Part shown: positions 15,704-40,711 of the stretch, one piece after another | Position numbering within the stretch: the stretch's first letter is position 1 | How the letters are laid out: each line of letters begins with the position of its first letter | Source of the DNA: Gammaproteobacteria bacterium | GTDB lineage: Bacteria > Pseudomonadota > Gammaproteobacteria > Pseudomonadales > Azotimanducaceae | Direction: 5' to 3' | NCBI GenBank assembly: GCA_009840545.1 | Contig: VXNM01000003.1 | Location: 62,001 to 126,000 of the forward strand | DNA length: 64,000 bases | Made by a program: the position numbers and the translations under genes | The notes under the pieces: model-generated | What the model was told of the DNA's origin: nothing | The model's database searches: none | The model's input: only the letters and a program-made list of their open reading frames with translations

Positions 15704-18700
15704 CTACGATGACTCTTCTTCCTCCTCTTCGTCTTCTTCGATTAGCCCTCCAGCTTCTTTGATAGATTCGTAAGCATTTTCCAACCTAAAGATTCGGGGA
15801 CCCAAGCTTTCCGCGTATTCTGTATCCTTCGCTTCCTCAGCAATTCCCCTCAGCTCAATGAGTAGGCTGAGTCCAGACTTTTCCGTTTCTCCTAGCCTTG
15901 CAATAGCCAACGCAACGGTAGGTTCTTGTGACTTTCGCAGCGACTTGACGAGGTCCAATTTGCGTTCTTCCGCGACTATGTCCTGCTCCAGTGCAGTTCG
16001 AGCTATTTGCGAATCGACATCAAAATCGAGCTCTGTCGCGATTGAAAGAAATGAAGCAAGTGTGCCTTGAGGGCGTTCTTCGTCGTCCTGATTTAAAAGC
16101 CAGTCTTGGAGAGACAATGCGATGTCATGTGCTCTTTCCATTGAATTCTGCAATTTGGAAAGCCTTGCCATGCGAACCAGTGCCAAATACGCGCCGACTT
16201 GGCTAATTGACTTGTCTCCAAGCCATGATTTGAACTGTCGAATGAGCGAGTCGATCGCCTCAAAGTCCTCAAAGTCAACCATGTCGTCCAGCGCGTAAAA
16301 GAACATTTCTGATCCAACGGAAGGTTGATCAGGTTCCGTCACGCTTCTGTAGGAACGGCCAGTGTGCTGGTTGTCCAGACCCAAGATTCGAACCAATGTC
16401 TGGATACTTGCCATTTTTTGAGCTTCAGTACTAACAACGTACCTAGATCCAATTCCCATGCGTTCAGGTTGCATCGAGGACTCATCAGTCGTCAGCGGAT
16501 AGTAGAGTCTCTTGAGGTACCTGTGGCCCTTCGCAAAGTCCCTCGCACGGTAATGAGCACGGATGAGCTGAACAAGCTTTAGTGCTTCGTACACTTCGAT
16601 TTCCTCGGCCATTTGAGAAATGTCTGGGTGAATTCGTTCTGCTTGGCCGATTACTTCTGATGGAGGATAGGCCACTGAGAGCGCGCGAACTGCAAAAGCC
16701 TTCCATACGTTCTGAATCTGCTCATCGTTGTCAAAGGGTCTAACTAACGGAATCACTCTTTGAACAAGAGCTTGTGCATTTTCCGGTGGAAGATTTTCGT
16801 TTGCACCCTCAACCAGTGTGAGAATATTCGAAGGTGAGCTCTGCGGCATGTTGTACATAATCATATTGGATGACTGACCGCTAAATTCTCCATATCGAAT
16901 CTGATTTAGGACAAGCATTTCGTAACAATCAACCGCCTCATCGTATCTTCCGGATTTTGCCAGTAGACGCGCAATCTTCTGGAGTCTGTCGGGACTCGAT
17001 TCACTAATTCGGCGAGCCCTAGCAATGAGAGCGTCCGATTCGGATTCGGTCAACTGAACATCGGCATCGGCGGCTAAAGTAAGCCACATCATGAACTCAT
17101 GCCCATCAGCCGTAGCGTCGACAACCCTTGCTGAGAGTTCGTCTAAACGTTGCGACATTTCGTTTGGAAAATGCTGGTATGCCTTGGAGGTCTGTTCGTA
17201 CATCGACATTGAAGCTTGTCGCTCCCAGGGCGATAAAGCAACCAAGAAGCTTTCCAATTCCCGTCCCAGAGGTGCTTTTGATACAAGAACCTCCAGCAAG
17301 GTTGGAATCTCCTCCTCTTCCTCTATTTGTCCTCCTGAAACAATGTATCCGATTGGGCCAGGTAAAGCGCTCACCCCGAATCTCATGGAACTGGACATGT
17401 ACATAACGTTCGACGACGGTTTGCCTTTACTCGGATACTGAATCAGCAGCGGTTGAATATTTCTACTGCCGTAAAACCGGCTCATCGAATCGCCAAGACC
17501 TGCTGCCTGAGAACCACGCCAGAGCGAACGTAGCTGATTTGGCACCTCATCAGGATCTATACTTTCGGAGTTTGCGCTTTCCTGCAATCTGGTGAAGACT
17601 GCGTCAAGTCCCTTAGGCAAAAAATCCTGTGAACCGTAGTTGGCCATGACGCCTCGAATTCTTCTTAGAAGGTCTTCAGTGGGGTCTCTTTGTCCGGGAC
17701 CTACAACTTCATCGTTTGTCCTAAAAATCTCTTCACGAATTTCCGCCCGCCGCAAGTCGGGGCTACCACCTAGCGCCATTGACAATGCCAAATCATAGTT
17801 TTCAAACTTGAGAGCAGAGATATAGTAGGCCATTCGTACATTGTTGTTATTGTCTTCTAATCTGTGATATGCTTCCAACCAATCCAAGACTTCTGTTGAA
17901 TACAAGCTCGACCAAATCAAGCGTTCGATAAAGTACTTTTCATCCGGAAACTTTTTGTGCAATGCCTCATAAATATCTGCTAGTTTTCTCCCTACTTCCA
18001 ATATTTCTGGATCATTGCCCCCGTAATAGTATGATGTTTGATTCACCATCAATTTGGCAACTTCTAAATCGTCAATGTTCCCCTGGAGGATATCGTCAAC
18101 AGACTTCAAATATTGGTCTTTGAAGACTGTATACAAAGCATCTCTAAAGTAAAACCACAGGTTAGAATTCTGTGCAGTATTTTGGAAATCAAGCAGGGCA
18201 CGATACGCAGCGTCAATGTCTCCCGTGTGATATTCTCTCATTAGACTCGCGATTTGACTGGAGCCTCGAATCTTTGATGCAAAATCACTAACAATGTCCA
18301 GATATGAGCTTATGTTTGAATCGTGAATATTGAACAAAATGACCATTGACTGCATTCTTTGTCTGACATACTCGTCTTGCAGATTCATCTTGTCAAGAAG
18401 TTCCGCCACAGTGGTCTTTACTCGGTCTTGAAGAGTTTGATCTAGAGGGCTAGAGAAGAAATCACCAAGTACTGTAGAAACGTCTATTCCAATGGAAACC
18501 TGGTTTTCACGAAGGTTTCCGACAAAGTGCTCAAATAGCAATACAAGCTCTTCAATTCCTCCACGCTCCTTGGTGTAGTACCACAAACTTGCGATGCGAT
18601 AGTAATACCGTCGCAGAGTCTCTTTGACATCAGCATCTCTCATGAATTCTTCGCTGATGGGTACCAAACGTTCTCCAAGAATGTCCTCCAGTTCAATCAT

Positions 18701-21700
18701 GAAAAGCGGATCGTCATAGAGAAATTGCATCAGGTCTTTGCGGTTCTCCTTCAGATGAGGAACAGCTACATTCACGAGCCTCAAGAAGCTCGCATCATCA
18801 AAGACAACTGACGCGTAGCGTAATCCTGCACGGTAATTGCCTTCATTCATGTAATCTCGAAAGAGCCTATCCAATGGTTCAGGCGTCTCGAGAATATTGC
18901 TAATGCGAGCTACCCTCTCGATATCCATATCTTCAAGCGCTTGGTTCAAAGCCGCTTCCATTCTCGTTTGGTCGTATGGAATTGACTTGACCTCGAGATC
19001 CGGCAGTTTTTCCACCAAAGTGGGCTTCGGCAGGATGCCTGCCGTGTTGTAGTGAAACTGCAAACTTTCTGTGAAATCCTCATCTTCACTGAAGTGCTGG
19101 ACAAGAATTAGGTCAACTTCATCGGAGACATCAGTGTTATCTGTCGCTATACAAAGCCTGCGTAAAAGCTGGGCCAGATGGTTTAAACGGGAGAATCGAG
19201 CCAACACGATTGACTCCCCTTCTGTGTCTTCACTTTCTTCTGAGGCCTCTTGCTCCAAAACCTCAATGACCTTGGCGAGTTCTTCGTCAAAGAGAGTGCG
19301 AAATTTACCAAGTTTTGCATCCGACATTTGTGGAGAATCTGGCCATGTGGCGATCAATCCTTGTACAAGGATGTCGTAAAAAGTCCTGAATTCGCGGGTG
19401 ACGCTGGTGTTGACTCGGCTACTTGGCGCCATGTACATGATCATAGGCATGGCCATGCCTGCTCCCATTCGAGTCTCACTCTTGGGAGGTGCGGCATGCA
19501 GTGCAACAGGCAGTCCGCGCATCACCTTGTCCAACGCGCTGGCGTACAGCGCGTTCGCCACGTCCAGCTGGCCGTTCCCCTCCCGCAGCGCGGCCGTCTT
19601 GAACTGCAGCTCCAGGCTGTCCCGGTTCACCGTCAGGGCCTGGCTGTACGAAGCCAGCGCCTGCTTGCTGTATCCCGCCTCCAGGAACAGGTCCGCCTTC
19701 GTCTTCACCACGTCGATCTGGCCCGTGATGTCCCGAACCAGCGACAGCGAGCGCTCCGCGCCCACCGTGTCCCCCTGGGTCAGCAGCGTGCGCGCGATGC
19801 TGATGTACACCTCCGGCGGCAGCTGCTGCCGCAGCCCGATCAAGCGGCGGCCGTACCTCAGCTGACGCTCCGGATCGCCCTCGTTCTGGTAGATCGTGAA
19901 GAACCCCGCGTTCGGTGTCGCCATCGTCACGATCTCCCGAAGCACCGCCAGCCGGCGGATCCCCGCCTCCGACACCGAGTTCTCCATCGCCTCGAACTCG
20001 CCCTCCCGGTCGTTCGTCTCCTGCGCGATCTCCGACAGCAGCGTGTACAGGTAGAACTTGTCCTCGCGGCCCGTGATCCGCTCCAGGATCACCCGGTGCG
20101 TCCATCGGAACACCGACTCCACCTCCGCGCTCAGCTGCTGGAAGAACATCCGCTGGCCCACCATGTTGATGATCCCGTCCACGGCCACCACGAACTCGTT
20201 GTCGTCCACCGCGTGCTCCGCCACGTACTGCAGCAGGGCCACCGCCTCCATCGTCCGGTCGTCCTCCTTCATCAGGTCCGCCATCAGCAGAAGGTTGTCG
20301 CTGTGCTCCGGCTGCTCGATCAGGGCCCGGCGGTAGCTCTCGATCGCCTCGTCCGAGAAGCCCCCCATCGACAGCACGCTCGCCTCGAACTCTCCGCTCA
20401 CCGCCTCCGCGTCGTACCGGCGCAACTCCTCCAGCCAGTGCTGGATGTCCTCGTACTTCTCGTTCGTTCCCTCCGCAAGGTCGTACGCCAGAAGGTTCAG
20501 CACGATGTTCTGGATGTGCTCCAGGCGGTGCTCCGGGTCGATCTGCTCCAGACGGCGCAGCACCTCGTCGTACTTCGAGTACTCCTGCAGCTGGAGGTAC
20601 ACCAGGCCCAGCTGACGCAGCTTGTCCACCTCCGGCATGTCCGTGCTCCGCGCGAACTCCTTAACGATCTCGGTGGCCGAGAAGGCGTCCCCCACCTCGG
20701 TGTAGATCCGCACCAGAAGGTTCATCTCGTTCCGGTCCGCCTCGCCCGAGTACAGCTTCCCCTCCAGGTCCACCGCCATGTCCGCCAGCGCGTTCAGCTC
20801 CGCCGCGATCTGCAAAAGCTGGCTCTCCGCGAAGCTCCGACGCGCCGGCGCCTCCTCCGCGACCCAGATCTCGCGCCACAGCTCCAGCGCCGTCTCCTGG
20901 TTGCCCACCACGTTGTGCAGCCACGCCAGCCGCATCCGGTCGTCGTACCCCAGCTTCCCCTCGTGCTCCCGGATCGCCTCGAACACGTCCAGCGCCCGCT
21001 CGAACTTCCTGAGTCGCTCGAACGAGTCCGCCACCACCCGAAGATCGCTCGAGTCCGGCGGCAACGACGCCCACAGCTCCTCCACCGCCTGCTCCGCCTC
21101 GACCTCCCGGCCCCGCGCGAAGTGCGTCTCGAACAGAAACACGTTCCCGTACACGCTCGGACCGTGCGCCGCAGCGTGGCGCTCCACCATCGCCGTCGCC
21201 TCCGCAACGTAGCCCATCTGGTTCATGAACTCCCCGCCCAGAACCAGAACCTCGATCCGGTCCCGGTTGCTCTCCTCGAACCGCTCCCATACCTCCAGGG
21301 CCCGCTCCGGCTCCGCAACGTTGATGTGGTACGACGCCAGACCCACGTACCACTGCACCACCATCGGCTCCCGCTCGATCAGATTCTCGTACTCCGACAC
21401 CATCTCCGAGGACTTCCCCGCCGTGTCGTAGATCTGGATCAGCCGCATCCGCGCCTCCACGTCCGACGTGTCCCGGTTGATCGCGTGGAACAGATCGATC
21501 GCGTCGTCGTACCGCTCCAGGTCGATCAGCAGGTCGATCCGCAGATCCAGAAGATCCTCGTTCTCCACCCCACGAGCCTCCAGCTCCACCACCAGGTCGT
21601 CCATCCGACCCTCGCCACGGTACGCCTCGTCCACCAAAGTCAGCGCGTACAGCGCGTCGAACCGAAGCTCCGTCGAGTCGTACGCCCGCCACGCGTGCTC

Positions 21701-22402
21701 CCGAGCCGTCGCGTGGTCGCCCGCCTTCAACGCCCACTCCGCCACCCGAACCAGCTGGCGAAAGTGCCGCGGCGACTCCGAGTCCGGCCGGTACAGCTCC
21801 AGCGCACGGTCCGGATGGCCCAGAACCGCCAGCGTGATCGCCGCCCGGTTCTTGAACTCCTGGTCCCGGTCCCGGGCAAGATCCACCAGTCCCTCCACGT
21901 TCCGACGGTCCACCCCGATCATCGCCAGCCGGATCCGGATGAACTCCCGCTCCTCCTCCAGATCCGTCGCGTCCAGCGCCTTCCGGTACCACTCCGCCGC
22001 GCCCGACTCGTCCCCGCTCGCGTCCAGAAGACGCGCCTTCAGCAACGTCCCGTCCACCGTCTCCGAAAGCTCCAGGGCCGTGTCCACCACCTCCAGGGCC
22101 CGCTCCCGGTCCCCGTACTGCCAGTGCAGGTGCGCCTGCGATAGACGCGACTTCGAACGCTCCAGTGCCGGACGAGTCTCGTCCGACGCCACCAGCTCCA
22201 GACCCTCCAGCGCGCCCTCCACGCTCTTCGTCTCCGTCACCCAATGACTGTACACCGCGTCCACCAGACCCACGTCCAGACGACCCTCCGACGCGTTCGA
22301 CGCGCCCAGAGCCTCCATCGGGCCCTCCTGTGACCACGCCGATAATGTACAAAGCACAAAAAGGCTAGTGAAAAGAGTGCGGAAACAAGATGAGTGCTTC
22401 AT
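15704..22402 (-). CDS. Giant secreted TPR protein, copy 1 (2232 aa)
   Basis: A Sec signal peptide (residues 1-24, 'LFVLCTLSAWS') leads a very long chain of TPR-like helical hairpins. Residues about 26-964 hold many clear units (such as 'WQYGDRERALEVVDTALEL' and 'AGDHATAREHAWRAY'). They are encoded by GC-rich DNA that looks identical to the second giant gene. A Met-rich linker ('MGAGMAMPMIMYMAPSS') follows, then about 1270 residues of more degenerate helical repeats in ordinary-GC DNA, with further Met-rich stretches, ending in an acidic tail ('EEDEEEEEESS'). No catalytic motif is seen. It is the last gene of the minus-strand MoxR/VWA block, 283 bp after copy 2. That spacer holds no clear gene and could carry its own promoter. 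I infer a large periplasmic scaffold or clamp working with the MoxR system. Confidence 0.9.
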   Translation of the reverse strand: MKHSSCFRTLFTSLFVLCTLSAWSQEGPMEALGASNASEGRLDVGLVDAVYSHWVTETKSVEGALEGLELVASDETRPALERSKSRLSQAHLHWQYGDRERALEVVDTALELSETVDGTLLKARLLDASGDESGAAEWYRKALDATDLEEEREFIRIRLAMIGVDRRNVEGLVDLARDRDQEFKNRAAITLAVLGHPDRALELYRPDSESPRHFRQLVRVAEWALKAGDHATAREHAWRAYDSTELRFDALYALTLVDEAYRGEGRMDDLVVELEARGVENEDLLDLRIDLLIDLERYDDAIDLFHAINRDTSDVEARMRLIQIYDTAGKSSEMVSEYENLIEREPMVVQWYVGLASYHINVAEPERALEVWERFEESNRDRIEVLVLGGEFMNQMGYVAEATAMVERHAAAHGPSVYGNVFLFETHFARGREVEAEQAVEELWASLPPDSSDLRVVADSFERLRKFERALDVFEAIREHEGKLGYDDRMRLAWLHNVVGNQETALELWREIWVAEEAPARRSFAESQLLQIAAELNALADMAVDLEGKLYSGEADRNEMNLLVRIYTEVGDAFSATEIVKEFARSTDMPEVDKLRQLGLVYLQLQEYSKYDEVLRRLEQIDPEHRLEHIQNIVLNLLAYDLAEGTNEKYEDIQHWLEELRRYDAEAVSGEFEASVLSMGGFSDEAIESYRRALIEQPEHSDNLLLMADLMKEDDRTMEAVALLQYVAEHAVDDNEFVVAVDGIINMVGQRMFFQQLSAEVESVFRWTHRVILERITGREDKFYLYTLLSEIAQETNDREGEFEAMENSVSEAGIRRLAVLREIVTMATPNAGFFTIYQNEGDPERQLRYGRRLIGLRQQLPPEVYISIARTLLTQGDTVGAERSLSLVRDITGQIDVVKTKADLFLEAGYSKQALASYSQALTVNRDSLELQFKTAALREGNGQLDVANALYASALDKVMRGLPVALHAAPPKSETRMGAGMAMPMIMYMAPSSRVNTSVTREFRTFYDILVQGLIATWPDSPQMSDAKLGKFRTLFDEELAKVIEVLEQEASEESEDTEGESIVLARFSRLNHLAQLLRRLCIATDNTDVSDEVDLILVQHFSEDEDFTESLQFHYNTAGILPKPTLVEKLPDLEVKSIPYDQTRMEAALNQALEDMDIERVARISNILETPEPLDRLFRDYMNEGNYRAGLRYASVVFDDASFLRLVNVAVPHLKENRKDLMQFLYDDPLFMIELEDILGERLVPISEEFMRDADVKETLRRYYYRIASLWYYTKERGGIEELVLLFEHFVGNLRENQVSIGIDVSTVLGDFFSSPLDQTLQDRVKTTVAELLDKMNLQDEYVRQRMQSMVILFNIHDSNISSYLDIVSDFASKIRGSSQIASLMREYHTGDIDAAYRALLDFQNTAQNSNLWFYFRDALYTVFKDQYLKSVDDILQGNIDDLEVAKLMVNQTSYYYGGNDPEILEVGRKLADIYEALHKKFPDEKYFIERLIWSSLYSTEVLDWLEAYHRLEDNNNNVRMAYYISALKFENYDLALSMALGGSPDLRRAEIREEIFRTNDEVVGPGQRDPTEDLLRRIRGVMANYGSQDFLPKGLDAVFTRLQESANSESIDPDEVPNQLRSLWRGSQAAGLGDSMSRFYGSRNIQPLLIQYPSKGKPSSNVMYMSSSMRFGVSALPGPIGYIVSGGQIEEEEEIPTLLEVLVSKAPLGRELESFLVALSPWERQASMSMYEQTSKAYQHFPNEMSQRLDELSARVVDATADGHEFMMWLTLAADADVQLTESESDALIARARRISESSPDRLQKIARLLAKSGRYDEAVDCYEMLVLNQIRYGEFSGQSSNMIMYNMPQSSPSNILTLVEGANENLPPENAQALVQRVIPLVRPFDNDEQIQNVWKAFAVRALSVAYPPSEVIGQAERIHPDISQMAEEIEVYEALKLVQLIRAHYRARDFAKGHRYLKRLYYPLTTDESSMQPERMGIGSRYVVSTEAQKMASIQTLVRILGLDNQHTGRSYRSVTEPDQPSVGSEMFFYALDDMVDFEDFEAIDSLIRQFKSWLGDKSISQVGAYLALVRMARLSKLQNSMERAHDIALSLQDWLLNQDDEERPQGTLASFLSIATELDFDVDSQIARTALEQDIVAEERKLDLVKSLRKSQEPTVALAIARLGETEKSGLSLLIELRGIAEEAKDTEYAESLGPRIFRLENAYESIKEAGGLIEEDEEEEEESS
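19509..22329. repeat. 2821-bp GC-rich exact repeat, copy A
   Basis: This segment matches 26470-29290 at a constant offset of 6961 bp, with no mismatch found by eye. It is bounded by the codon after the signal-peptide cleavage site (right end) and the start of a Met-rich linker (left end). A hand count of one 60-bp line inside (21061-21120) gives 46 G+C; a line outside in the same gene (17881-17940) gives 22. Confidence 0.95.
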
Positions 22403-22685
22403 AAGTTACTTTAACTTCTCAATGATTTGTAGGGGTCGGATTGGGTGAGTTCGTCTTGCACTTATTCTAAGTCAGAAAGCAACATCGAATCCAATTGTTG
22501 TACGAACAACAACGAGACCAAGACCTCGACGAACTACTGAAACAAAGATTGCTACATGTAAACAGACAACTTCAGCCCGTGTACGCAATGGAAGCACAGA
22601 ACCTTCTAACCCGTATGCCACGAGCGAAGTCGCATCAAAAATCACACGCTTGTCTGTCAAACGTGTGCCCTTCGCTAGCCTATAG

Positions 22686-25600
22686 CTAAGACGACTCTAT
22701 GGCATCCAATCCTCCAGCGATTTCAACCGCCTCGTACGAGTTTTCGAGTGTAAGAATTCTAGTCTCGATTTTCTGTAGGAAATCCCCATCGTTGGAACTG
22801 TCCGCAATCGGACTTAGCTTTCGCAATAAACGTAGCCCCGCCGTATCCACGTTCACGCGTTTGACCACGTTCAATAAATCTGTCGTATCTAGCTGTTGCC
22901 GGATCAAGTCCAGGAATTCCAGCTCTTGGTCGACACCGAGCAATTCTTGATCGAACACAATTTGGCAAATCTCCGGAGCAATCGGTAAATTGCCCTCCAA
23001 TCCCATCAATGCAATTGATCGAACTAGGCCAGTGTCGATTTGCTCAACAGACTTTGTCAACAACCAGTTTTGAATTTGACCTGCGATTTCTTGAGCGCGG
23101 CTCGATTCTTCTTTGGCTATCAACATTGTGACTAGCTGTGTTAATCCATTAAGCACTGGAGATGTTTCGATTTCATCGTCATCTAACCAATCTAGAAACA
23201 CTCCAGCAGTCGAATCAATCCCTTGGGAGTCATCGAAGTTTAGTGCTTCGCCCAGTAACGATACGAACAGATCTGCGCTTGTGGGTATCGAAGGAGTCGA
23301 AACTACAATGGGCGATGATCCCATGCCTGGCAATTGAATTCCCAAAAGTGTGGCCAATGATTGAATGTTGCTCAATGTCTGATAGGACGATCCTAAACCC
23401 ATCATTCGGGGATTGACCGAGACAGGCTCTGTAAGTTGGATGGACGTCGATGCACTTTCGGACGTGAACAGCGTACGCGTCAATTGGTTTGCTTGCCGCG
23501 TGTTTCCAGTTAGGTGATTGAGTCTCACAAGTTCGACGAGTCGAATCCCGTCAAATCCTTTCACAGAGTCGTCCGTTCGATCGACATCGGGAATGAGCTC
23601 CTTCAGGTTTTGCACTACCTCGGAAGGATCGTACGCCATAGAAAAAGCTCTGATTGCAAATGCTTCCCATGTGCTTCGAAATTCGGGTGTGTCTCCCAAT
23701 GGTCGGACTACTGCAACTACACGTCGAACGAATGTTTGCAGCTTTTCTTCTGGAAGATGTTTCGCAGCTTCTTCTATCAACTGCAATACGCCCGAGTCCT
23801 CGCCATTAGAAGGACCGTAGAAGTAGATCCTTCCTGAGGGCGCAAACTCATTGAGATTTGCTCGCCGGATGACCAGTAATTCATAACAATCGGTGGCTTG
23901 GTCGAAATGGCCCTGCTTTGACAAGAGCGCTGCGAAATCAGACATTTGCTGGTTGTTCGGGGATTTCATCTCGCGTGCACGGGAGACAAATGCTTCCGAC
24001 TCCTCCACTGACAGTGAAGTCTCCGAGTCCATTACGAGTCTCATCCACAATGAAAATTCAACGTCGCTCGCGACTCGGGCAACAACTTTTTGGGTCAACT
24101 CGCCCATTCGTTTCGTGAGATGTTCAGGAAACTCACGATATGCCTTTGAAACTAGATCTTTCATTGGTTCCCAACGCAACTGCTCGTTTTGTGACACGGA
24201 AGTCAAGAGCAATTCGAGCTCTTCACCCAACGGGGCTTTCGAAGCAAGAAACTCTAATAGAGTGGGTTCTTGTTCGTCTTCATCGGTTTCATCTTGCATA
24301 CCGATTCCGCCAATAATGACCCCCATTGAAAGATACATCGTGTCGCTTGTGGGACTACCCTTGCTAGGCCATTGCAGCAATACGGGCAGGAAATTTCGCA
24401 TTCCGTAGAATCCGCTGGCCGCATCTCCAATGCTTGCGGCTTGGACACCGCGCCACAGCGAACGCAACATATTCTTGACCTCGTCCTCGTTCAGAGTTTC
24501 TTCTGCAACTCTCTCTTGAATCCTAGAGATCATGGATTCCAGCCCTGCGGGCATCATGCCACTTCTCATCATCCGATTGAAAGGATCATTTCCCCGGACA
24601 ATACTCAGAATGGCCGCAGGGTCGAAGTAGTCATACGGTTGAGCAGAGTCATTGCGAGTCAAGATGCCTTCGCGGATAGCTGGCATTCGAAGATCCGGAC
24701 CGCCATCCAACGCTATCTCCAAAGCTTGATCGTACAATTCTTCCTTAATTGCAAGCAGGTAGTAAGCCATTCGAATGGACTCTTCGCTATTGTCAATTTC
24801 GTAGTAGTCTTGCAGGTGACTTAACAGTCCATCCAATTGTGCCCCATTTAACGCGTTTAACGCAGCTTTGCCGCCAAGGATTTGCAATGCCAGCTCCTTG
24901 TCGTCCGCAAACCGTTCGAACAAGCTTGCGAGAAGACTCAATCGCTCCTCTGAATCTGGAAGAACATCATGGTCTTCGTAGGTTCGCGCACTTAGGATCC
25001 ACTTGGCCAACTCCACGTCGTCCATAGTTCCTTCACGTATTTGCTGAAGTGATTTCAGATACTGTTCCTCAAATACCGTATATAGGGGATCGCCAGCATA
25101 GAAGCCAATAGTCTCGTTTTCACGATAGATTTCAATGATTGAACTGTAGGCCGCGTCGAGTTCACCCTCATAGAAGTTGCGCAAAACTGATTTGGCTTCA
25201 TCGCCACCCGGCGCAACGGTGTAGTAATGATCGACAATGTCAAAGAACGTTTCCAAGTTCTCAGGGGCTACCTTGAAGTTGTAGATCATAGACATCGCAT
25301 ACGACTGCGTGAACTCATCTTGAATGTCGATTTTTTGCAACAATTCCTTAGTTGCCTCCATGAATCGTTCGCGAAGTTCTTCGCTCAACGGAGTCTCCAT
25401 GAGCTGCGCATGAATAGCGAACAAGTCAATTGCCATGGAGACTTGATTTGCCCGAACGCCCTTCACCACATGTTCAAACATCATTACCATTTCATCGGGA
25501 ACTCCACGTTTGTTTACGTAGAACCACAATCCTGCAGTCCCCATGAACCCGAACCGCTGAATCTCTCTCTGCACTTCGGGGTCTCTTAGGAAGGATTCGT

Positions 25601-28600
25601 CGAAGACAGCGACCGTAATTCCCAAACGTTCTTCAATCTCCAAGAGAAAGACGGGGTGATTGAGCAGAAACCTCATCAGATGGGCAGGCTCTTCCTGCAG
25701 CATTGGGACGGCGGTGTTTAAGAGCCTGGTGTAGTTAGCATCGTCAAGAGATATAGACGCGTAGCGCAGTGCGGCGTAATTCTCATTTCGCAGGATTTCT
25801 CGAAAAATGCGATCAAGCGGCTCTGGATACTCGACAATTCTTCCAATGCGTACAAGCTTCTCTAATTGTGGTCCATCTATCGCACGTCGCAATTCTGTTT
25901 CTACTCGCGTAAGGTCTGAAGGATATTTCTCGGTTTCATCCTCTTCTATCGCTTGGGCAATTTGCGGGGCAGGTTCCGTTCCTAATTTGGTGTAGTGATT
26001 GCGCAATGTGTCAATGTAGTTTTCGTCGTCTGCGAAATGCTCTAGCAGCCGTTGATCCAATTCGCTCGATACTTCAACTTGATCGGTTGCGAAGCACAGA
26101 CGTCGGAACATGTGCGATAGGTGATACAGGCGCGAGTAGCGTGCAAGCGAAATCGTCTCTTTTTCTTCTTCATCGGATGTCGTCTCTTCCTCTGACTCTT
26201 CCTTTGCCTCTTCTTCGATCTGTGCTATGGCTTTGTCAAACTCTTCGTTGAACATGCCCAGAAAGTTGTCAAGCAGTTCTTGTTCCTTTTCAGCAGAACT
26301 TGGCCACGTGGCGATCAGTCCCTGCATCAACATCTCGTAGTAGGAGCGATAGTCTCGAGTGACACCCGTATTGACTCCTCGGGATCCCGCCATGGAGACT
26401 ACTCCTCCCATGGAAACCATCATGCTTGAAGCACTTCGTGATGTGGGTGGTGCGGCGTGCAACGCGGCGGGCAGTCCGCGCATCACCTTGTCCAACGCGC
26501 TGGCGTACAGCGCGTTCGCCACGTCCAGCTGGCCGTTCCCCTCCCGCAGCGCGGCCGTCTTGAACTGCAGCTCCAGGCTGTCCCGGTTCACCGTCAGGGC
26601 CTGGCTGTACGAAGCCAGCGCCTGCTTGCTGTATCCCGCCTCCAGGAACAGGTCCGCCTTCGTCTTCACCACGTCGATCTGGCCCGTGATGTCCCGAACC
26701 AGCGACAGCGAGCGCTCCGCGCCCACCGTGTCCCCCTGGGTCAGCAGCGTGCGCGCGATGCTGATGTACACCTCCGGCGGCAGCTGCTGCCGCAGCCCGA
26801 TCAAGCGGCGGCCGTACCTCAGCTGACGCTCCGGATCGCCCTCGTTCTGGTAGATCGTGAAGAACCCCGCGTTCGGTGTCGCCATCGTCACGATCTCCCG
26901 AAGCACCGCCAGCCGGCGGATCCCCGCCTCCGACACCGAGTTCTCCATCGCCTCGAACTCGCCCTCCCGGTCGTTCGTCTCCTGCGCGATCTCCGACAGC
27001 AGCGTGTACAGGTAGAACTTGTCCTCGCGGCCCGTGATCCGCTCCAGGATCACCCGGTGCGTCCATCGGAACACCGACTCCACCTCCGCGCTCAGCTGCT
27101 GGAAGAACATCCGCTGGCCCACCATGTTGATGATCCCGTCCACGGCCACCACGAACTCGTTGTCGTCCACCGCGTGCTCCGCCACGTACTGCAGCAGGGC
27201 CACCGCCTCCATCGTCCGGTCGTCCTCCTTCATCAGGTCCGCCATCAGCAGAAGGTTGTCGCTGTGCTCCGGCTGCTCGATCAGGGCCCGGCGGTAGCTC
27301 TCGATCGCCTCGTCCGAGAAGCCCCCCATCGACAGCACGCTCGCCTCGAACTCTCCGCTCACCGCCTCCGCGTCGTACCGGCGCAACTCCTCCAGCCAGT
27401 GCTGGATGTCCTCGTACTTCTCGTTCGTTCCCTCCGCAAGGTCGTACGCCAGAAGGTTCAGCACGATGTTCTGGATGTGCTCCAGGCGGTGCTCCGGGTC
27501 GATCTGCTCCAGACGGCGCAGCACCTCGTCGTACTTCGAGTACTCCTGCAGCTGGAGGTACACCAGGCCCAGCTGACGCAGCTTGTCCACCTCCGGCATG
27601 TCCGTGCTCCGCGCGAACTCCTTAACGATCTCGGTGGCCGAGAAGGCGTCCCCCACCTCGGTGTAGATCCGCACCAGAAGGTTCATCTCGTTCCGGTCCG
27701 CCTCGCCCGAGTACAGCTTCCCCTCCAGGTCCACCGCCATGTCCGCCAGCGCGTTCAGCTCCGCCGCGATCTGCAAAAGCTGGCTCTCCGCGAAGCTCCG
27801 ACGCGCCGGCGCCTCCTCCGCGACCCAGATCTCGCGCCACAGCTCCAGCGCCGTCTCCTGGTTGCCCACCACGTTGTGCAGCCACGCCAGCCGCATCCGG
27901 TCGTCGTACCCCAGCTTCCCCTCGTGCTCCCGGATCGCCTCGAACACGTCCAGCGCCCGCTCGAACTTCCTGAGTCGCTCGAACGAGTCCGCCACCACCC
28001 GAAGATCGCTCGAGTCCGGCGGCAACGACGCCCACAGCTCCTCCACCGCCTGCTCCGCCTCGACCTCCCGGCCCCGCGCGAAGTGCGTCTCGAACAGAAA
28101 CACGTTCCCGTACACGCTCGGACCGTGCGCCGCAGCGTGGCGCTCCACCATCGCCGTCGCCTCCGCAACGTAGCCCATCTGGTTCATGAACTCCCCGCCC
28201 AGAACCAGAACCTCGATCCGGTCCCGGTTGCTCTCCTCGAACCGCTCCCATACCTCCAGGGCCCGCTCCGGCTCCGCAACGTTGATGTGGTACGACGCCA
28301 GACCCACGTACCACTGCACCACCATCGGCTCCCGCTCGATCAGATTCTCGTACTCCGACACCATCTCCGAGGACTTCCCCGCCGTGTCGTAGATCTGGAT
28401 CAGCCGCATCCGCGCCTCCACGTCCGACGTGTCCCGGTTGATCGCGTGGAACAGATCGATCGCGTCGTCGTACCGCTCCAGGTCGATCAGCAGGTCGATC
28501 CGCAGATCCAGAAGATCCTCGTTCTCCACCCCACGAGCCTCCAGCTCCACCACCAGGTCGTCCATCCGACCCTCGCCACGGTACGCCTCGTCCACCAAAG

Positions 28601-29363
28601 TCAGCGCGTACAGCGCGTCGAACCGAAGCTCCGTCGAGTCGTACGCCCGCCACGCGTGCTCCCGAGCCGTCGCGTGGTCGCCCGCCTTCAACGCCCACTC
28701 CGCCACCCGAACCAGCTGGCGAAAGTGCCGCGGCGACTCCGAGTCCGGCCGGTACAGCTCCAGCGCACGGTCCGGATGGCCCAGAACCGCCAGCGTGATC
28801 GCCGCCCGGTTCTTGAACTCCTGGTCCCGGTCCCGGGCAAGATCCACCAGTCCCTCCACGTTCCGACGGTCCACCCCGATCATCGCCAGCCGGATCCGGA
28901 TGAACTCCCGCTCCTCCTCCAGATCCGTCGCGTCCAGCGCCTTCCGGTACCACTCCGCCGCGCCCGACTCGTCCCCGCTCGCGTCCAGAAGACGCGCCTT
29001 CAGCAACGTCCCGTCCACCGTCTCCGAAAGCTCCAGGGCCGTGTCCACCACCTCCAGGGCCCGCTCCCGGTCCCCGTACTGCCAGTGCAGGTGCGCCTGC
29101 GATAGACGCGACTTCGAACGCTCCAGTGCCGGACGAGTCTCGTCCGACGCCACCAGCTCCAGACCCTCCAGCGCGCCCTCCACGCTCTTCGTCTCCGTCA
29201 CCCAATGACTGTACACCGCGTCCACCAGACCCACGTCCAGACGACCCTCCGACGCGTTCGACGCGCCCAGAGCCTCCATCGGGCCCTCCTCAGCCCAGGC
29301 GGACAATCCGCCTAGCGCAAGCAGTACGAAGAAGTGAAATTTGAGGGGAAGACGATTGTTCAT
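22686..29363 (-). CDS. Giant secreted TPR protein, copy 2 (about 2225 aa)
   Basis: This is a paralog of copy 1 with the same architecture. A different signal peptide ('FFVLLALGGLSAWA', ATG at 29363) is followed by an N-terminal TPR module of about 940 residues that is identical to copy 1. Then come a Met/Gly/Ser linker ('SMMVSMGGVVSMAG') and about 1260 residues of degenerate helical repeats, only moderately similar to copy 1, with no acidic tail. An in-frame ATG at 29423 would add 20 polar residues before the signal peptide and is less likely. It lies 217 bp downstream of the VWA protein gene, same strand, in the same block. The divergent halves may bind different partners while the identical halves bind a common one (inference). 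Confidence 0.9.
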   Translation of the reverse strand: MNNRLPLKFHFFVLLALGGLSAWAEEGPMEALGASNASEGRLDVGLVDAVYSHWVTETKSVEGALEGLELVASDETRPALERSKSRLSQAHLHWQYGDRERALEVVDTALELSETVDGTLLKARLLDASGDESGAAEWYRKALDATDLEEEREFIRIRLAMIGVDRRNVEGLVDLARDRDQEFKNRAAITLAVLGHPDRALELYRPDSESPRHFRQLVRVAEWALKAGDHATAREHAWRAYDSTELRFDALYALTLVDEAYRGEGRMDDLVVELEARGVENEDLLDLRIDLLIDLERYDDAIDLFHAINRDTSDVEARMRLIQIYDTAGKSSEMVSEYENLIEREPMVVQWYVGLASYHINVAEPERALEVWERFEESNRDRIEVLVLGGEFMNQMGYVAEATAMVERHAAAHGPSVYGNVFLFETHFARGREVEAEQAVEELWASLPPDSSDLRVVADSFERLRKFERALDVFEAIREHEGKLGYDDRMRLAWLHNVVGNQETALELWREIWVAEEAPARRSFAESQLLQIAAELNALADMAVDLEGKLYSGEADRNEMNLLVRIYTEVGDAFSATEIVKEFARSTDMPEVDKLRQLGLVYLQLQEYSKYDEVLRRLEQIDPEHRLEHIQNIVLNLLAYDLAEGTNEKYEDIQHWLEELRRYDAEAVSGEFEASVLSMGGFSDEAIESYRRALIEQPEHSDNLLLMADLMKEDDRTMEAVALLQYVAEHAVDDNEFVVAVDGIINMVGQRMFFQQLSAEVESVFRWTHRVILERITGREDKFYLYTLLSEIAQETNDREGEFEAMENSVSEAGIRRLAVLREIVTMATPNAGFFTIYQNEGDPERQLRYGRRLIGLRQQLPPEVYISIARTLLTQGDTVGAERSLSLVRDITGQIDVVKTKADLFLEAGYSKQALASYSQALTVNRDSLELQFKTAALREGNGQLDVANALYASALDKVMRGLPAALHAAPPTSRSASSMMVSMGGVVSMAGSRGVNTGVTRDYRSYYEMLMQGLIATWPSSAEKEQELLDNFLGMFNEEFDKAIAQIEEEAKEESEEETTSDEEEKETISLARYSRLYHLSHMFRRLCFATDQVEVSSELDQRLLEHFADDENYIDTLRNHYTKLGTEPAPQIAQAIEEDETEKYPSDLTRVETELRRAIDGPQLEKLVRIGRIVEYPEPLDRIFREILRNENYAALRYASISLDDANYTRLLNTAVPMLQEEPAHLMRFLLNHPVFLLEIEERLGITVAVFDESFLRDPEVQREIQRFGFMGTAGLWFYVNKRGVPDEMVMMFEHVVKGVRANQVSMAIDLFAIHAQLMETPLSEELRERFMEATKELLQKIDIQDEFTQSYAMSMIYNFKVAPENLETFFDIVDHYYTVAPGGDEAKSVLRNFYEGELDAAYSSIIEIYRENETIGFYAGDPLYTVFEEQYLKSLQQIREGTMDDVELAKWILSARTYEDHDVLPDSEERLSLLASLFERFADDKELALQILGGKAALNALNGAQLDGLLSHLQDYYEIDNSEESIRMAYYLLAIKEELYDQALEIALDGGPDLRMPAIREGILTRNDSAQPYDYFDPAAILSIVRGNDPFNRMMRSGMMPAGLESMISRIQERVAEETLNEDEVKNMLRSLWRGVQAASIGDAASGFYGMRNFLPVLLQWPSKGSPTSDTMYLSMGVIIGGIGMQDETDEDEQEPTLLEFLASKAPLGEELELLLTSVSQNEQLRWEPMKDLVSKAYREFPEHLTKRMGELTQKVVARVASDVEFSLWMRLVMDSETSLSVEESEAFVSRAREMKSPNNQQMSDFAALLSKQGHFDQATDCYELLVIRRANLNEFAPSGRIYFYGPSNGEDSGVLQLIEEAAKHLPEEKLQTFVRRVVAVVRPLGDTPEFRSTWEAFAIRAFSMAYDPSEVVQNLKELIPDVDRTDDSVKGFDGIRLVELVRLNHLTGNTRQANQLTRTLFTSESASTSIQLTEPVSVNPRMMGLGSSYQTLSNIQSLATLLGIQLPGMGSSPIVVSTPSIPTSADLFVSLLGEALNFDDSQGIDSTAGVFLDWLDDDEIETSPVLNGLTQLVTMLIAKEESSRAQEIAGQIQNWLLTKSVEQIDTGLVRSIALMGLEGNLPIAPEICQIVFDQELLGVDQELEFLDLIRQQLDTTDLLNVVKRVNVDTAGLRLLRKLSPIADSSNDGDFLQKIETRILTLENSYEAVEIAGGLDAIESS
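26470..29290. repeat. 2821-bp GC-rich exact repeat, copy B
   Basis: Second copy of the 19509-22329 segment, same orientation. The flanks differ at once on both sides: the signal-peptide codons on the right, and on the left 'GLPAALHAAPP' here against 'GLPVALHAAPP' in copy A, then unrelated linker codons. The GC-rich codon choice leaves long spurious open frames on the opposite strand in both copies. Confidence 0.95.
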
Positions 29364-29580
29364 TGGTTTGTGAGCTTTTGTATTACAGTGAGAGATGAGG
29401 GTCGAGTGAGCTCGTATTGCCAACTTAGGTCAAGTACGAGAATTCTTCCTTTGGGAGTCGATGCTTTTGATGCCACAGCAGAATTGACCAGATACCTTGC
29501 TGCCCATTTTGGGGAATTTGTTTCCGCGAACTAATCCATCTCGCAAGATGTGAGGAGGTTCGCATGTCGGCCACGTTCGA

Positions 29581-32076
29581 TCATGATCCGCGCGGCCAGC
29601 GTCTGTAAAGAAGGTCGCCCAAGTAAAACAGAATAGCCAAGAGCAACAACCAAGGCCATACTTGAACAACAACAAACGAAAGTTCGCCTGAACTTACACT
29701 CGCTAGAGCAATTGAATCGTCGTCCAGATCCAATAGATTCAAGCCACCGGTAGCTTCTGACAATCCTACGAGATCGAGCCCGTCCATTGGATCCACTTGA
29801 TTTTCCTGAACTTCGTCCGAGACAGCTAAACTTGCACTTCTCCAAATCGAATCGTTTGCGCTACCGGATATTCCTATAAGCAAGTCTTCTTCCGATCCTG
29901 AGAACAAGTCTAATTCAAAGAGTCCGGGAGCTGTTTCTGTAAATGCGTACGTGTCTTCACCGACTAGCGATGAGTCCAAGTTATAAAGTTGAGCCTCGGG
30001 AACGAGTGTTTCGTTCGGTGAAACACGATTTGCCACAACTGTCGTCTTTCCGAAGCGACGTTGCGTGTCGATTTCAAAACTATTGGTAAACGAAGCATTC
30101 CGCCGAACAATCCGACCCAAAAACTCGGGGTACTCTTCCCATGCACCCCAATTTCGAGTGCCTTCTCCAACGGGTTCGGTCATTAGCGTAGTGACCCGAC
30201 CCAATCCATAGCGCCACGTCGCGAGAACAGGATGCTCCGTATCGGCTACTTCCACAAGGACTTCCGCTCCGTCCCGAGCCTCTACCTCAACGTATCCGTT
30301 CAGTGCAGGAACTTCGTCAGTTTGCACTTCTCCCCACCATCCTTGACCACGACTGGTTTCCAAATCGAACAGACCTCGCTTGTACATGGGGGACTTCTTT
30401 GTGGAAGTCTGTTTGAAAATCATTTCAACTAGCTGAAATTGATTCCCAACCGCATAGAATCGGCCACCTCCCCAATTTGCGATATCGGACATGATTAAGT
30501 TGTGTCCGCCCTGGCCAACCAAGATAGTGGAGACCGTGATACGGTCACGGTTGATCCGTCGCGTCATGGATTCGTAAGGAGAATCCTCTACTCCTGCATC
30601 CGTTATTAGAACGATGTGTTTGAACCGTGTATTGACGTTCTGCAGGCCGTAGTAGGCTTCTTGGATTGCCGGAAAAAGTACGGTGCCGCCTATTGCTTTC
30701 ATTCGACCTATGGCACGGTCAATTTCAATCTTGTTTGTTGCGGGTTGCATTGGAACCGCCCAATGCTTGTTTCCGTAGAACTCGACAATACCGATGCGAT
30801 CATGTGGCTTCATACGCCTTACGGCGATTCTTGCAATATGCTTGGCGAGCTCAATTCGAGTCCCACCCATCGATCCCGATGTATCCAAGATAATCGCTAG
30901 ACCAACGCTCGGATCGATCTTGTCTTGATCTCCGGGAATCTCGACCGGCAATAGATCGCTCAACGGAGAATCGTGGTAACCGCCATCTCCGAATGCCGCT
31001 TCCCCTCCGCTATGAATCAATCCGAGACCATCACTTTGAACAGCATCGGCAATCTTGTTCTGTACGCTCTCCTCGACGACGCTCGTAGGAGCATCGTCAA
31101 GCATTACTACATCGTACTTTGACAGATCGATATCATCCGTCACAGATGAGGCGACCGGCGCCTCAATTTCAAATCCTGCACCCAATAGATCGGACAATGA
31201 TGATTCTGCTCCGACCTGTCGATTGCCCAAGTACAACACTCGAATAGGATCTTGTATCGCAACGACGTGCCGCCATTGATTGTTGGTGAGATCTAAATCT
31301 TGGTCTTCGGGTACTGAAACTTCGACTTCGATATCCATAAATCCCGGTTCGTCCGTTTTGAACTCGAGCAAGACAATGGTACGACCATCGCTCGCCAACC
31401 CCTCTGCATGAGCGATGATTTCATCGTCATGTACTGCAGTTACTTCCAGCTCTGGAACAGTTCCTATGATTTCGACAAACAGAGAAACTTTCTCGCCAGG
31501 ACGAACATCTGTTGAGCGAACATCGCTAATGTAGACATCCGGAACTGGGTCGATTGAAATGTTGTGTACGGGAATCTCTCGTTCTTGCAAAAGGTCGAAC
31601 GCCCTTCCCCAATGCCGATCTGTGGCTAAACCATCTGACACGACGGTGACTGATCCACTGACTCCAAATGGAATTGACTGAGCTGCAATCTCAAGCGCAT
31701 CCCCTAGAGGCGACTTTTCATCGGCGTTCATATGTACGAAATTGAGAGAGTCGACTGCTGGTTCAGTTCCGCCGATCTGCACGACACTCACCGAACCTTC
31801 TCCACTGAACTTTCCAATTACCTCTGCCGCTAACTCAACTGCTCGGGATTTACTCTCCTCTGACAAACTATTGGACTGGTCAAGGATGACCGCGTAGTGT
31901 TTGTTTGGCAAATTCGAAACAACTACCGGTTGCATCAAACCTACAACCAAAGACAAAAACACCAAGGTTCGAATAATGCCATGCCAGACTCGCTTAGGAC
32001 GACTTGGCAAGAACCAGAGAGCGGGAACCAGAAGCGCTAACAGACCAAACAGTGGATAGTTGAATGACAGTTCCAT
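29581..32076 (-). CDS. Membrane protein with two VWA-type MIDAS motifs and a GATase-like middle domain, 831 aa
   Basis: Two N-terminal membrane helices (about residues 8-23 and 35-53) precede a first VWA-like domain with 'LDQSNS' (66-70). A beta-rich stretch follows, then a class I glutamine-amidotransferase-like domain ('VVMLDDAPTS', 'LGLIHSGGEAAFGDGG', about 280-380). Next is a full VWA domain with 'LDTSGSMGG' (398-404) and 'LITDAGVEDSP', a C-terminal beta region and a final helix ('WPWLLLLAILFYLGDLLY'). This layout is known from BatA/BatB-linked 'VWA and glutamine-amidotransferase-like' membrane proteins of MoxR clusters. The ATG at 32076 shares its A with the TAA of the preceding gene (TAATG), which fixes the start and implies coupling. 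The role is probably metal-dependent protein binding in the periplasm under control of the MoxR ATPase. Confidence 0.88.
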   Translation of the reverse strand: MELSFNYPLFGLLALLVPALWFLPSRPKRVWHGIIRTLVFLSLVVGLMQPVVVSNLPNKHYAVILDQSNSLSEESKSRAVELAAEVIGKFSGEGSVSVVQIGGTEPAVDSLNFVHMNADEKSPLGDALEIAAQSIPFGVSGSVTVVSDGLATDRHWGRAFDLLQEREIPVHNISIDPVPDVYISDVRSTDVRPGEKVSLFVEIIGTVPELEVTAVHDDEIIAHAEGLASDGRTIVLLEFKTDEPGFMDIEVEVSVPEDQDLDLTNNQWRHVVAIQDPIRVLYLGNRQVGAESSLSDLLGAGFEIEAPVASSVTDDIDLSKYDVVMLDDAPTSVVEESVQNKIADAVQSDGLGLIHSGGEAAFGDGGYHDSPLSDLLPVEIPGDQDKIDPSVGLAIILDTSGSMGGTRIELAKHIARIAVRRMKPHDRIGIVEFYGNKHWAVPMQPATNKIEIDRAIGRMKAIGGTVLFPAIQEAYYGLQNVNTRFKHIVLITDAGVEDSPYESMTRRINRDRITVSTILVGQGGHNLIMSDIANWGGGRFYAVGNQFQLVEMIFKQTSTKKSPMYKRGLFDLETSRGQGWWGEVQTDEVPALNGYVEVEARDGAEVLVEVADTEHPVLATWRYGLGRVTTLMTEPVGEGTRNWGAWEEYPEFLGRIVRRNASFTNSFEIDTQRRFGKTTVVANRVSPNETLVPEAQLYNLDSSLVGEDTYAFTETAPGLFELDLFSGSEEDLLIGISGSANDSIWRSASLAVSDEVQENQVDPMDGLDLVGLSEATGGLNLLDLDDDSIALASVSSGELSFVVVQVWPWLLLLAILFYLGDLLYRRWPRGS

Positions 32077-33788
32077 TACGGCATCAGTCCTCTCTGGTAG
32101 AGATACCACTCCAATCCTAGAAGCAATACGGCGAGCAACGCCAGCCATGTTGCGATGCCCCATATTGTCTGAGAATTGGAAGTTTCAATTGCAGCATCCG
32201 TCAGATTCTGAGAACCCGTTCGAACTGCGGCTGCAGGGTCCAACAACGACACCTGCAATGAAGTACCGTCGCGCAACTCAAGTGTTCCTGCTTCATTCCT
32301 AACATAGGATGCTCCGATTGCATATTCCGCTAGCAAATCGGAACTCGCGAGAGAAGATCCTGATGTCTGTTCTACTGGTTGCCGACCCGCAGCCAAATAC
32401 GCATACCACGGCTCTTGATTGGCCAAGTAACGAATCGACTTCGAAATAAAGATGGGAAAACTCATGCTGTCCTTGAAATTGAAACTCTCGCTTACCAATT
32501 CACTCCAGACAGAAACATACCGCACATCCGAATAGTCAAGCTGTACGCTGATATCTTGGTTCAATTCGGTTGCCATAGCAGCGGAATCTATTTCCGCTAG
32601 ACCCAAGTCGGCGACGCTTTGATGAAGAGCTTCCATTCCTTCGAGCTCGCCCGAGTAACCAATGACGAATGCCTTAGATTGCTCGACGATTGGCGTCGTG
32701 CGTAAATACGGAATTGATGTTTCGGAATCATTGGGACCAAGGACTGCAACGCTTGCTCCTGATCCTACGATCTCTATTCCCGCATCCGCGTCAATCGCTC
32801 TTCTAATGGGTGTGGGTACGTCTTCACCGATTGATATGGACACTCGTTCTTTGGTGGGAAGAGTAACAAGAGCTTCATTGTCAAAAGCTAGGTCGTCAGG
32901 TTCTTCAATTGCGACGGAAAACACAGATCCGTCGGCGACAACATCTCGGACTCGAAATTCGTTTGGAGAAATCGATTCCAATCGATTTGTGGCCAAGTCC
33001 TGATCACCGATCTGAACTCGAAAGTCTTCACTGTTCACACTCAGTCCGTCAGCAAGAATTCGAAAGAGAACATCGACCTTATCCCATTCACCAGACAACG
33101 GTTCTCCGATTCCAAGTGCAACAATTCCTCTGTTCTCAAAGTCGTCCAGAGAATCAAAACGACGAGCCACTCTATAGCCAGCGGGCAATCGATCCAAAGC
33201 ATGTTCAGAGATCGGTGCGCCTCCATATACGACAACATTGACCTCCGTTGGATAACTGTTGTTGCGGGGCAAGAGTCTTAACAGTTCGTCGATTGACGAA
33301 CGGGCAGCTACCGGCTCGAATTCTTCTAACCTACGCTCAAGAACGAGCTTTTCCTCGCCCGGTGCCAATACTCGAACATTTTGTGCTCCCGACAAGAAGA
33401 CCTCACGAGAATCGCGTGAGTACTTGGAAACGTCATTGAGAAGCTGATTTTTCGATTGCTGGAAGATGTCGCCGGTCGATGCATGGGCAGATCCGTCGAG
33501 TACAAGAATGTTGAAACCCGCAGTACGTTGCGCTCCCGTAAGCGGTCCTCCAAATCCAATCCACAACAACCAGCAAATGAGCAAGGCCAGAAGATAGGCC
33601 AAAATGTGTCGAAATCGCTGCCGGAGAACTCGTACTGGAGCTTCCCGAACGGCTGCAGCCCAAAACATTGTGGTAGCGACAGGCAATTCTGTATAGCGAA
33701 TACGGAGTTGCTGCAAGAGAAACAATAGTCCCGCCAAAGCCAACAAACCCAGGCCGACAAGGAGTGGCGACAGATTGAAGAAACTCAT
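32076..33788 (-). CDS. BatA-like membrane protein with degenerate VWA domain, 570 aa
   Basis: The N-terminus matches the BatA/aerotolerance N-terminal domain: two hydrophobic helices (about residues 5-27 and 60-80) around 'RYTELPVATTMFW'. The following VWA-like core has 'NILVLDGSAHAS', where the MIDAS DxSxS is reduced to DGSAH. A long beta-rich periplasmic region and a C-terminal helix ('WGIATWLALLAVLLLGLEWY') complete it. It overlaps DUF58 by 4 nt (ATGA) upstream and the VWA-GATase gene by 1 nt downstream. It probably forms a membrane complex with the next protein. The broken MIDAS suggests structural rather than metal-dependent binding. Confidence 0.85.
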   Translation of the reverse strand: MSFFNLSPLLVGLGLLALAGLLFLLQQLRIRYTELPVATTMFWAAAVREAPVRVLRQRFRHILAYLLALLICWLLWIGFGGPLTGAQRTAGFNILVLDGSAHASTGDIFQQSKNQLLNDVSKYSRDSREVFLSGAQNVRVLAPGEEKLVLERRLEEFEPVAARSSIDELLRLLPRNNSYPTEVNVVVYGGAPISEHALDRLPAGYRVARRFDSLDDFENRGIVALGIGEPLSGEWDKVDVLFRILADGLSVNSEDFRVQIGDQDLATNRLESISPNEFRVRDVVADGSVFSVAIEEPDDLAFDNEALVTLPTKERVSISIGEDVPTPIRRAIDADAGIEIVGSGASVAVLGPNDSETSIPYLRTTPIVEQSKAFVIGYSGELEGMEALHQSVADLGLAEIDSAAMATELNQDISVQLDYSDVRYVSVWSELVSESFNFKDSMSFPIFISKSIRYLANQEPWYAYLAAGRQPVEQTSGSSLASSDLLAEYAIGASYVRNEAGTLELRDGTSLQVSLLDPAAAVRTGSQNLTDAAIETSNSQTIWGIATWLALLAVLLLGLEWYLYQRGLMP

Positions 33789-38908: not shown

Positions 38909-38995
38909 ATCTTTCACCGTTGGTAGTGATTGAGTTAGTTACAGTTGCAACATTATTGCACACTCGGTGCAACTAATGATTGCGAAAGGCCAATA

Positions 38996-40666: not shown

Positions 40667-40711
40667 GCTTCGTCGCTCAAGGATGGATACTAATTTCTCA
40701 ACTCACCATCA

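Follow-up and report, generated by a model that had tools for sequence, protein, structure and literature searches.

What keeps one half of a gene identical to its neighbour while the other half drifts apart, and why should that half carry a base composition so unlike its surroundings? The question is posed by two giant tandem genes in a 64,000-nucleotide stretch of DNA, the window of this analysis (contig VXNM01000003.1, positions 62,001 to 126,000 of the forward strand, assembly GCA_009840545.1), from a gammaproteobacterium of the Azotimanducaceae. The genome, referred to here as G000, comprises 3.39 Mb in 14 contigs, and the window is part of contig 8. Both genes encode proteins of about 2,230 amino acids with TPR-like repeats and signal peptides (the latter judged by eye). 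The favoured answer, with a probability of about 0.66, is that the two genes trade their N-terminal halves by repeated ectopic gene conversion, with an AT-to-GC bias linked to the conversion. The genes and their parts are listed below, together with the fraction of G or C at third codon positions (GC3).

15704..22402, minus strand: gene 1, secreted TPR-type protein of 2,232 amino acids, N-terminal half in the repeat, C-terminal half unique (open reading frame; Pfam TPR families, best TPR_14 at 3e-13; signal peptide by eye)
19509..22329, minus strand: repeat copy 1, N-terminal TPR half of gene 1, GC3 0.925 (exact identity; composition)
15704..19508, minus strand: unique C-terminal half of gene 1, GC3 0.476, orthologue on contig C33 of genome G003 (composition; C-terminal-half tree)
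22686..29363, minus strand: gene 2, paralogue of about 2,225 amino acids (open reading frame; TPR families; start chosen by eye)
26470..29290, minus strand: repeat copy 2, N-terminal TPR half of gene 2, GC3 0.925 (exact identity; composition)
22686..26469, minus strand: unique C-terminal half of gene 2, GC3 0.513, orthologue on contig C79 of G003 (composition; C-terminal-half tree)

The two copies (19509-22329 and 26470-29290) form a maximal exact repeat of 2,821 bp with 0 mismatches, and similarity drops sharply beyond both edges. They lie in the same frame of two minus-strand open reading frames (ORFs, 15704-22402 and 22686-29423); the second reaches 29423 mechanically from a TTG, and the ATG at 29363, ahead of the signal peptide, is the probable start. 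The N-terminal halves (N-halves) are 100% identical in nucleotides and the C-terminal halves (C-halves) 35.9% identical in amino acids. An earlier interpretation made from the letters alone (the sequence-only reading) had described both the exact repeat and the moderate similarity of the C-halves, and exact comparison bears it out on each. Against solved structures, the N-half sequence gave 8 weak matches, mostly to OGT and NatA-like chains (best E 8e-4).

The most unusual feature of the locus, unmentioned in that reading, is a step in base composition at the repeat. GC3 is 0.925 in the repeat and 0.476 and 0.513 in the C-halves of the same genes, and overall GC is 66.8% in the tract and 46.7-48.5% in the C-halves. 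The genome reference consists of 732,862 sampled bases of G000, window included, with ORFs of at least 200 codons called mechanically; the 419 other ORFs in this sample have a mean GC3 of 0.498 (standard deviation 0.042, maximum 0.637), and among 2,274 segments of 200 codons none exceeds 0.725. Over no more than 25 codons at the right repeat border, GC3 drops from 0.97 to values of 0.40 and 0.45. The tract also has an internal polarity: GC3 climbs from 0.82-0.85 (codons 26-125) to 0.98 (codons 676-825) and then stays at 0.94-0.97 to the border, a significant rise along codons 26-964 of gene 1 (Spearman p 4e-5). The shift extends to the encoded protein. GC at first and second codon positions of the N-half is 0.71 and 0.37 (genus relatives 0.56-0.66 and 0.31-0.37), glycine, alanine, arginine and proline together make up 0.269 of its residues (genus relatives 0.204-0.237), and the lysine ratio K/(K+R) is 0.20 (0.28-0.37 in 18 relatives).

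Such a profile could reflect selection on codon choice or on the messenger RNA of the N-half (expression, folding), ending in one codon per amino acid. The effective codon number is 25.8 in the repeat, compared with 56.1 and 58.1 in the C-halves and a mean of 57.6 among sampled ORFs from 250 codons upwards, a set that includes the two giant genes; the repeat uses one dominant codon for most amino acids, and its preference for G over C at four-fold degenerate sites looks codon-like. However, the step sits at a recombination border inside a gene that is translated as one piece, and amino-acid-changing sites are biased too, with 105 changes from A/T to G/C (W>S) to 44 in the opposite direction (S>W) and K/(K+R) down to 0.20. 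The tuf/ribosomal-protein region of G000 (ORFs recognised by eye) shows hardly any codon bias, with GC3 of 0.46-0.63 and pooled four-fold sites at 23-27% for each base, so the bias of the tract is independent of optimal codons. Codon selection is a very improbable source of the step. The same composition has a side effect on annotation: an antisense ORF of 964 amino acids (19250-22144, plus strand), codon-aligned with gene 1, stays open because A-ending sense codons are almost missing (TTA 0, TCA 0, CTA 1). It was considered as a coding sequence and is taken to be a by-product, and thus a trap for annotation.

The history of the duplication comes from related genomes. Of 58 genomes searched with P0001, 12 contain relatives. 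The same genus, represented by 18 genomes (its own included), accounts for 11 of the 12; 10 of these 11 hold at least two family genes or pieces (in G004, two pieces on two contigs) and G010 holds one. In the C-half tree gene 2 pairs with C79 of G003 and gene 1 with C33, both with full support in the SH-like approximate likelihood ratio test (SH-aLRT 100), at nucleotide identities of 85.0 and 88.0%, respectively. Because the C-halves are one-to-one orthologous between the two genomes, the duplication predates the split of G000 and G003; since the N-halves are nevertheless identical within G000, their identity must have been restored after the split. Absence of differences between the N-halves, pairing of the C-halves by orthologue and a duplication older than the split are together the pattern of concerted evolution, and the gene conversion invoked by the sequence-only reading stands on this ground.

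Paralogues that escaped homogenisation look quite different. Non-homogenised full-length A-, B- and C-type pairs share 63-68% amino-acid identity in the N-half and 30-34% in the C-half; for pairs with G002_C55, the nearest N-half relative of G000, which lies on its own contig outside the array, the figures are 51-53% and 22-25%, and partial sequences are more widely spread. Among the unhomogenised A-, B- and C-type paralogues of G002, G007 and G011 no exact shared run of 25 nucleotides was found, and outside a duplicated pair in G007 the N-halves of these types have GC3 of 0.46-0.52. The G007 pair, on one contig, shares an exact tract of 4,278 bp that runs from inside the N-half deep into the C-half. 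The tuf gene, with one match above the family cut-off in each of five genomes, offers no pair as an internal control.

An identical module in two places could also be an assembly artefact, one module having been written into both, and the G000 copies are known from the assembly alone. Against this, the G003 assembly is interrupted at either edge of the repeat and shows nearly equal spacing: exact 55-base overlaps join its contigs C137, C79 and C33 at the two edges in the same tandem layout, and the unique stretch between the copies measures 4,124 bases in G003 and 4,140 in G000. Moreover, copying cannot create a step in composition. Such an artefact is scarcely credible, and the assembly collapse against which the sequence-only reading had cautioned is unlikely, given that the G003 contig links reproduce the layout. 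Other genomes break in a similar manner. Contigs C18, C19 and C23 of G014 overlap by 69 and 55 bases, two contig-end pairs in G005 and two in G008 share 55 bases inside the family, and two pairs in G013 share 26. We read the 55-base overlap as the trace of a k=55 assembler at a collapsed repeat. Judged from contig ends, the N-halves of G003 and G014 look homogenised too. Codons ending in G or C make up 16 of 17 at the G014 3' edge and 13 of 18 and 16 of 18 at the G003 edges, where the bases (the only ones comparable with G000) differ from those of G000 at 2 of 24 and 4 of 53 positions (6 of 77 in total). Complete N-halves of G003 and G014 were not found in their genomes, G003 giving only a weak match (E 1e-4), and no middle part was found for some N-halves in the genomes of G003, G014, G008 and G013. 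A scan of a collection of contigs of at least 3,000 bases, among which a collapsed 2.8-kb contig could not appear, returned one locus, a C-half contig. Collapsed repeats seem to have been lost before or during binning, and such tracts may be under-reported.

The borders of the repeat bear on what is exchanged. Compared with the G000 repeat, that of G003 gains 31 bp on the left, where it enters the signal-peptide region, and 2 bp on the right; the G014 repeat breaks about 80 residues further right, and the G007 tract crosses into the C-half. The sequence-only reading had taken the exchanged unit to be a protein domain, moved by recent gene conversion or module replacement under selection for a shared N-terminal half. 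With borders that differ in this way, domain limits hold only roughly, and neither module replacement nor exchange of a protein domain finds support; the borders instead look set by where homology ends. Recency tells only part of the story, since homogenisation, to judge by the contig ends, also took place in G003 and G014 and is thus recurrent. No selection for a shared half has to be invoked. The locus is a case of long-running concerted evolution, limited by homology and coupled to an extreme AT-to-GC bias, rather than of one recent module swap.

Changes were polarised against 16 sister-clade sequences of the genus, whose shared base at sites with at least 80% conservation served as the ancestral state. 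At third positions of the G000 N-half, 67 of 69 sites changed W>S and 1 of 76 changed S>W; at first and second positions the counts are 105 of 723 and 44 of 570 (p 6e-7). When agreement of G002_C55 with the ancestral state is required as well, 27 W>S third-position changes face 0 S>W. G002_C55 itself has 27 of 69 and 31 of 76 at third positions and 98 of 723 and 90 of 570 at first and second positions, and G010 leans slightly to A/T (36 of 723 vs. 60 of 570 at first and second positions, p 0.018; 23 and 31 at third positions). Eight unduplicated A- or B-type N-half comparisons are balanced at third positions (p 0.24 or more), as are four C-half comparisons (p 0.19 or more). In the duplicated C-type pair a smaller shift is seen: W>S exceeds S>W at third positions in both G007 (59 to 33, p 0.009) and G005 (21 to 8, p 0.024), and both depart from the eight pooled unduplicated comparisons (Fisher p 0.008 and 0.014). 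A strong AT-to-GC bias is thus confined to the homogenised tract and affects silent and amino-acid-changing sites alike. It ends at the recombination border in G000; G007 fits in part, and the W>S excess of G007 and G005 involves third positions only.

Composition by itself looks foreign, and family members of high GC do exist (N-half GC3 of 0.79-0.88 in 16 sequences from two other genera). The N-half could therefore have been imported horizontally from a high-GC organism into an ancestor, conversion having only copied it to both genes. Phylogeny points elsewhere: the N-half has G002_C55 as its partner within the genus (SH-aLRT 99), the position of the C-half is compatible with this placement, and a tree that unites the N-half with the 16 high-GC sequences scores 23.9 log-likelihood units lower and is rejected (approximately unbiased test p-AU 0.00027), although the donor might lie outside the sample. 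N-half four-fold sites carry more C than G in 13 of the 16 high-GC sequences, opposite to the repeat tract. Furthermore, the 3' edge of G014 is GC-rich despite a distant C-half (identity only 38-39%), so an old import would have had to escape drift back. Import is improbable.

The conversion-linked bias has its own difficulty in the distribution of G and C. Four-fold sites in the repeat hold G 0.77, C 0.11, T 0.09 and A 0.02. In self-complementary flanks a simple, strand-symmetric form of GC-biased conversion predicts equality, and the repeat has 76 G to 4 C between C and G (C_G) and 21 G to 1 C between T and A (T_A); genome-wide counts of G and C are 1452 and 1576 for C_G and 655 and 854 for T_A. 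The G_C flank shows no G excess (8 G, 17 C), and pyrimidine-ending two-fold and isoleucine codons in the repeat comprise 220 C and 13 T. T is retained mainly before C (12 of 66 vs. 1 of 167 elsewhere), with a weaker tendency of the same sign genome-wide. The pattern looks like a neighbour- and strand-dependent DNA process. It may also be that conversion is real and the composition comes from a mutation bias in repair synthesis (by an error-prone polymerase acting on one strand, or via an RNA intermediate) rather than from biased mismatch repair, since 76 G to 4 C in a symmetric flank is natural for single-strand synthesis and a gradient runs along the tract. Yet a mutator should speed up protein change, and the N-half branch is the shorter one in G000 (0.16, compared with 0.52 in G002_C55, where constraint may be relaxed). 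In addition, no reverse transcriptase was found among 20 other ORFs of the window scanned with Pfam, the remaining ORFs lying outside the scan. This origin of the composition is rather unlikely. The E. coli Chi motif occurs once on the coding strand of the tract and 0 times on the other, which is not informative.

Together with the preference for G over C, several observations weigh against a conversion-linked AT-to-GC bias. In G007 the exact 4,278-bp tract extends into the C-half, yet this C-half has no W>S excess (61 to 60), and the duplicated N-halves have none at first and second positions (18 to 16 in G007, 6 to 10 in G005). A third duplicated comparison, the 5' part of G005, is not significant at third positions (14 to 8, p 0.29), and the signals of G007 and G005 may stem from one shared ancestral branch. 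The control G002_C55, with a shorter frame (1,741 codons) and a long branch, may be under relaxed constraint. Polarisation relies on a sister-clade consensus of 16 sequences taken as ancestral, and within the clade the complete N-half comes from one genome, with edges only from G003 and G014 and one genome per species. The G007 pair is also free of the strand asymmetry (C_G counts of 17 G, 22 C and 19 G, 24 C). Overall, horizontal transfer and codon selection fit poorly and the conversion-linked AT-to-GC bias fits best.

Under the conversion-linked bias, the tandem paralogues would repeatedly exchange N-terminal halves by ectopic gene conversion, while C-halves, linkers and signal peptides, presumably too diverged to recombine, would set the borders of the tract. 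The bias would arise in conversion, through GC-favouring repair of heteroduplex mismatches or through biased repair synthesis, and in the long term could have driven GC3 from about 0.5 to 0.93. By our estimate the scaled bias would be about ln(0.925/0.075), roughly 2.5, if the genome GC3 near 0.5 is the equilibrium without conversion. The preference for G over C would need an added strand-specific element; conjecturally, the asymmetry would follow if the heteroduplex were always formed with the same strand and G:G and C:C mismatches were repaired unequally. That all parts hold at once, namely a bacterial conversion tract with a strand-asymmetric AT-to-GC bias that took GC3 from about 0.5 to 0.93 over 2.8 kb and shifted amino-acid composition, is an even bet.

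The giant genes stand next to a gene cluster whose members are as follows.

29581..32163, minus strand: vWA / GATase1-like protein, directly upstream of the giant genes (Pfam)
33785..34693, minus strand: DUF58 protein, same gene cluster (Pfam PF01882, 1.4e-26)
34710..35735, minus strand: MoxR-type AAA ATPase, same gene cluster (Pfam PF07726, 7.1e-62)
37265..42382, minus strand: three tandem paralogues, 37265-38917, 38996-40666 and 40712-42382 (composition, Pfam, pairwise identity)

The adjacent vWA gene has homologues next to the giant-gene array in G002, G003, G007 (partial) and G014. The three tandem paralogues, at 53-57% amino-acid identity and GC3 of 0.49-0.52, are not homogenised, and two of the three have weak TPR matches. 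An NCBIfam scan of six proteins gave none above cut-off. With MoxR, DUF58, vWA and TPR genes side by side, the neighbourhood resembles Bat-like clusters; unlike these, it includes tandem giant secreted TPR proteins of more than 2,200 amino acids. The conserved N-half may serve as a periplasmic TPR scaffold to which a shared partner docks, and variable partners may bind the C-half, which evolves fast. Elsewhere in G000, loci on contigs C2 and C5 are a second repetitive family with raised GC3. The C2 locus (L083:335-2644) is a 770-codon ORF, masked stretch included, with at least nine degenerate tandem units (124-nucleotide core, spacing 201-246); its GC3 of 0.61 ranks 6 of the 419 sampled ORFs, and it favours codons ending in C, not G. 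A 75% identical relative lies in a region of C5 (589800-594000, L135), whose sole long ORF (612 codons) has a GC3 of 0.686, above all 419 sampled ORFs.

The GC bias of bacterial gene conversion is disputed, and the locus is a natural test of it. Lassalle et al. (2015, PMC4450053) argued for such a bias from core genes, with higher GC linked to recombination irrespective of codon preference; Ely argues against it. According to its main text, the former study compares core families with and without recombination, and the terms paralog, duplicate, ectopic and strand are missing there, whereas the present case is one sharply bounded paralogue tract, far stronger and strand-asymmetric. No bacterial paralogue case with a step this large was found in the literature searched, which left most subscription journals outside; the nearest is a 2026 preprint on Mycobacterium tuberculosis (PMC13061034). 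It too deals with paralogues in a bacterium that convert recurrently, reports that T>C changes are enriched in the paralogous regions concerned and proposes that repair asymmetries could reshape paralogue composition over time. Its tracts are short (median 101 bp) and GC content is not associated with conversion frequency, in contrast to one 2.8-kb tract with an extreme step here. In eukaryotes, a study of primate X-chromosome palindromes (PMC8981503) describes near-identical copies kept by conversion, GC above that of the flanks and GC-biased replacements, as seen here, but human arms reach 46.3% GC vs. 41.2% in the flanks, compared with 66.8% vs. 46.7-48.5%. Histone and ribosomal multigene families, in which conversion between copies is associated with raised GC (cited in PMC8981503), differ from a two-copy bacterial tract in being eukaryotic and multi-copy.

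Two halves of one gene, transcribed and replicated together, here differ in recombining with a neighbour, and effects of expression and location therefore largely cancel. The locus also cautions against reading horizontal transfer into every sharp GC island or foreign-looking codon usage, and short-read genomes can lose such tracts. If the conversion-linked bias is true, the locus would be an extreme realised case of biased conversion reshaping composition at a single locus, in a phylum other than that of M. tuberculosis, and its imprint (an excess of G over C, retention of T before C) could reveal which repair enzymes and which strand polarity are involved.
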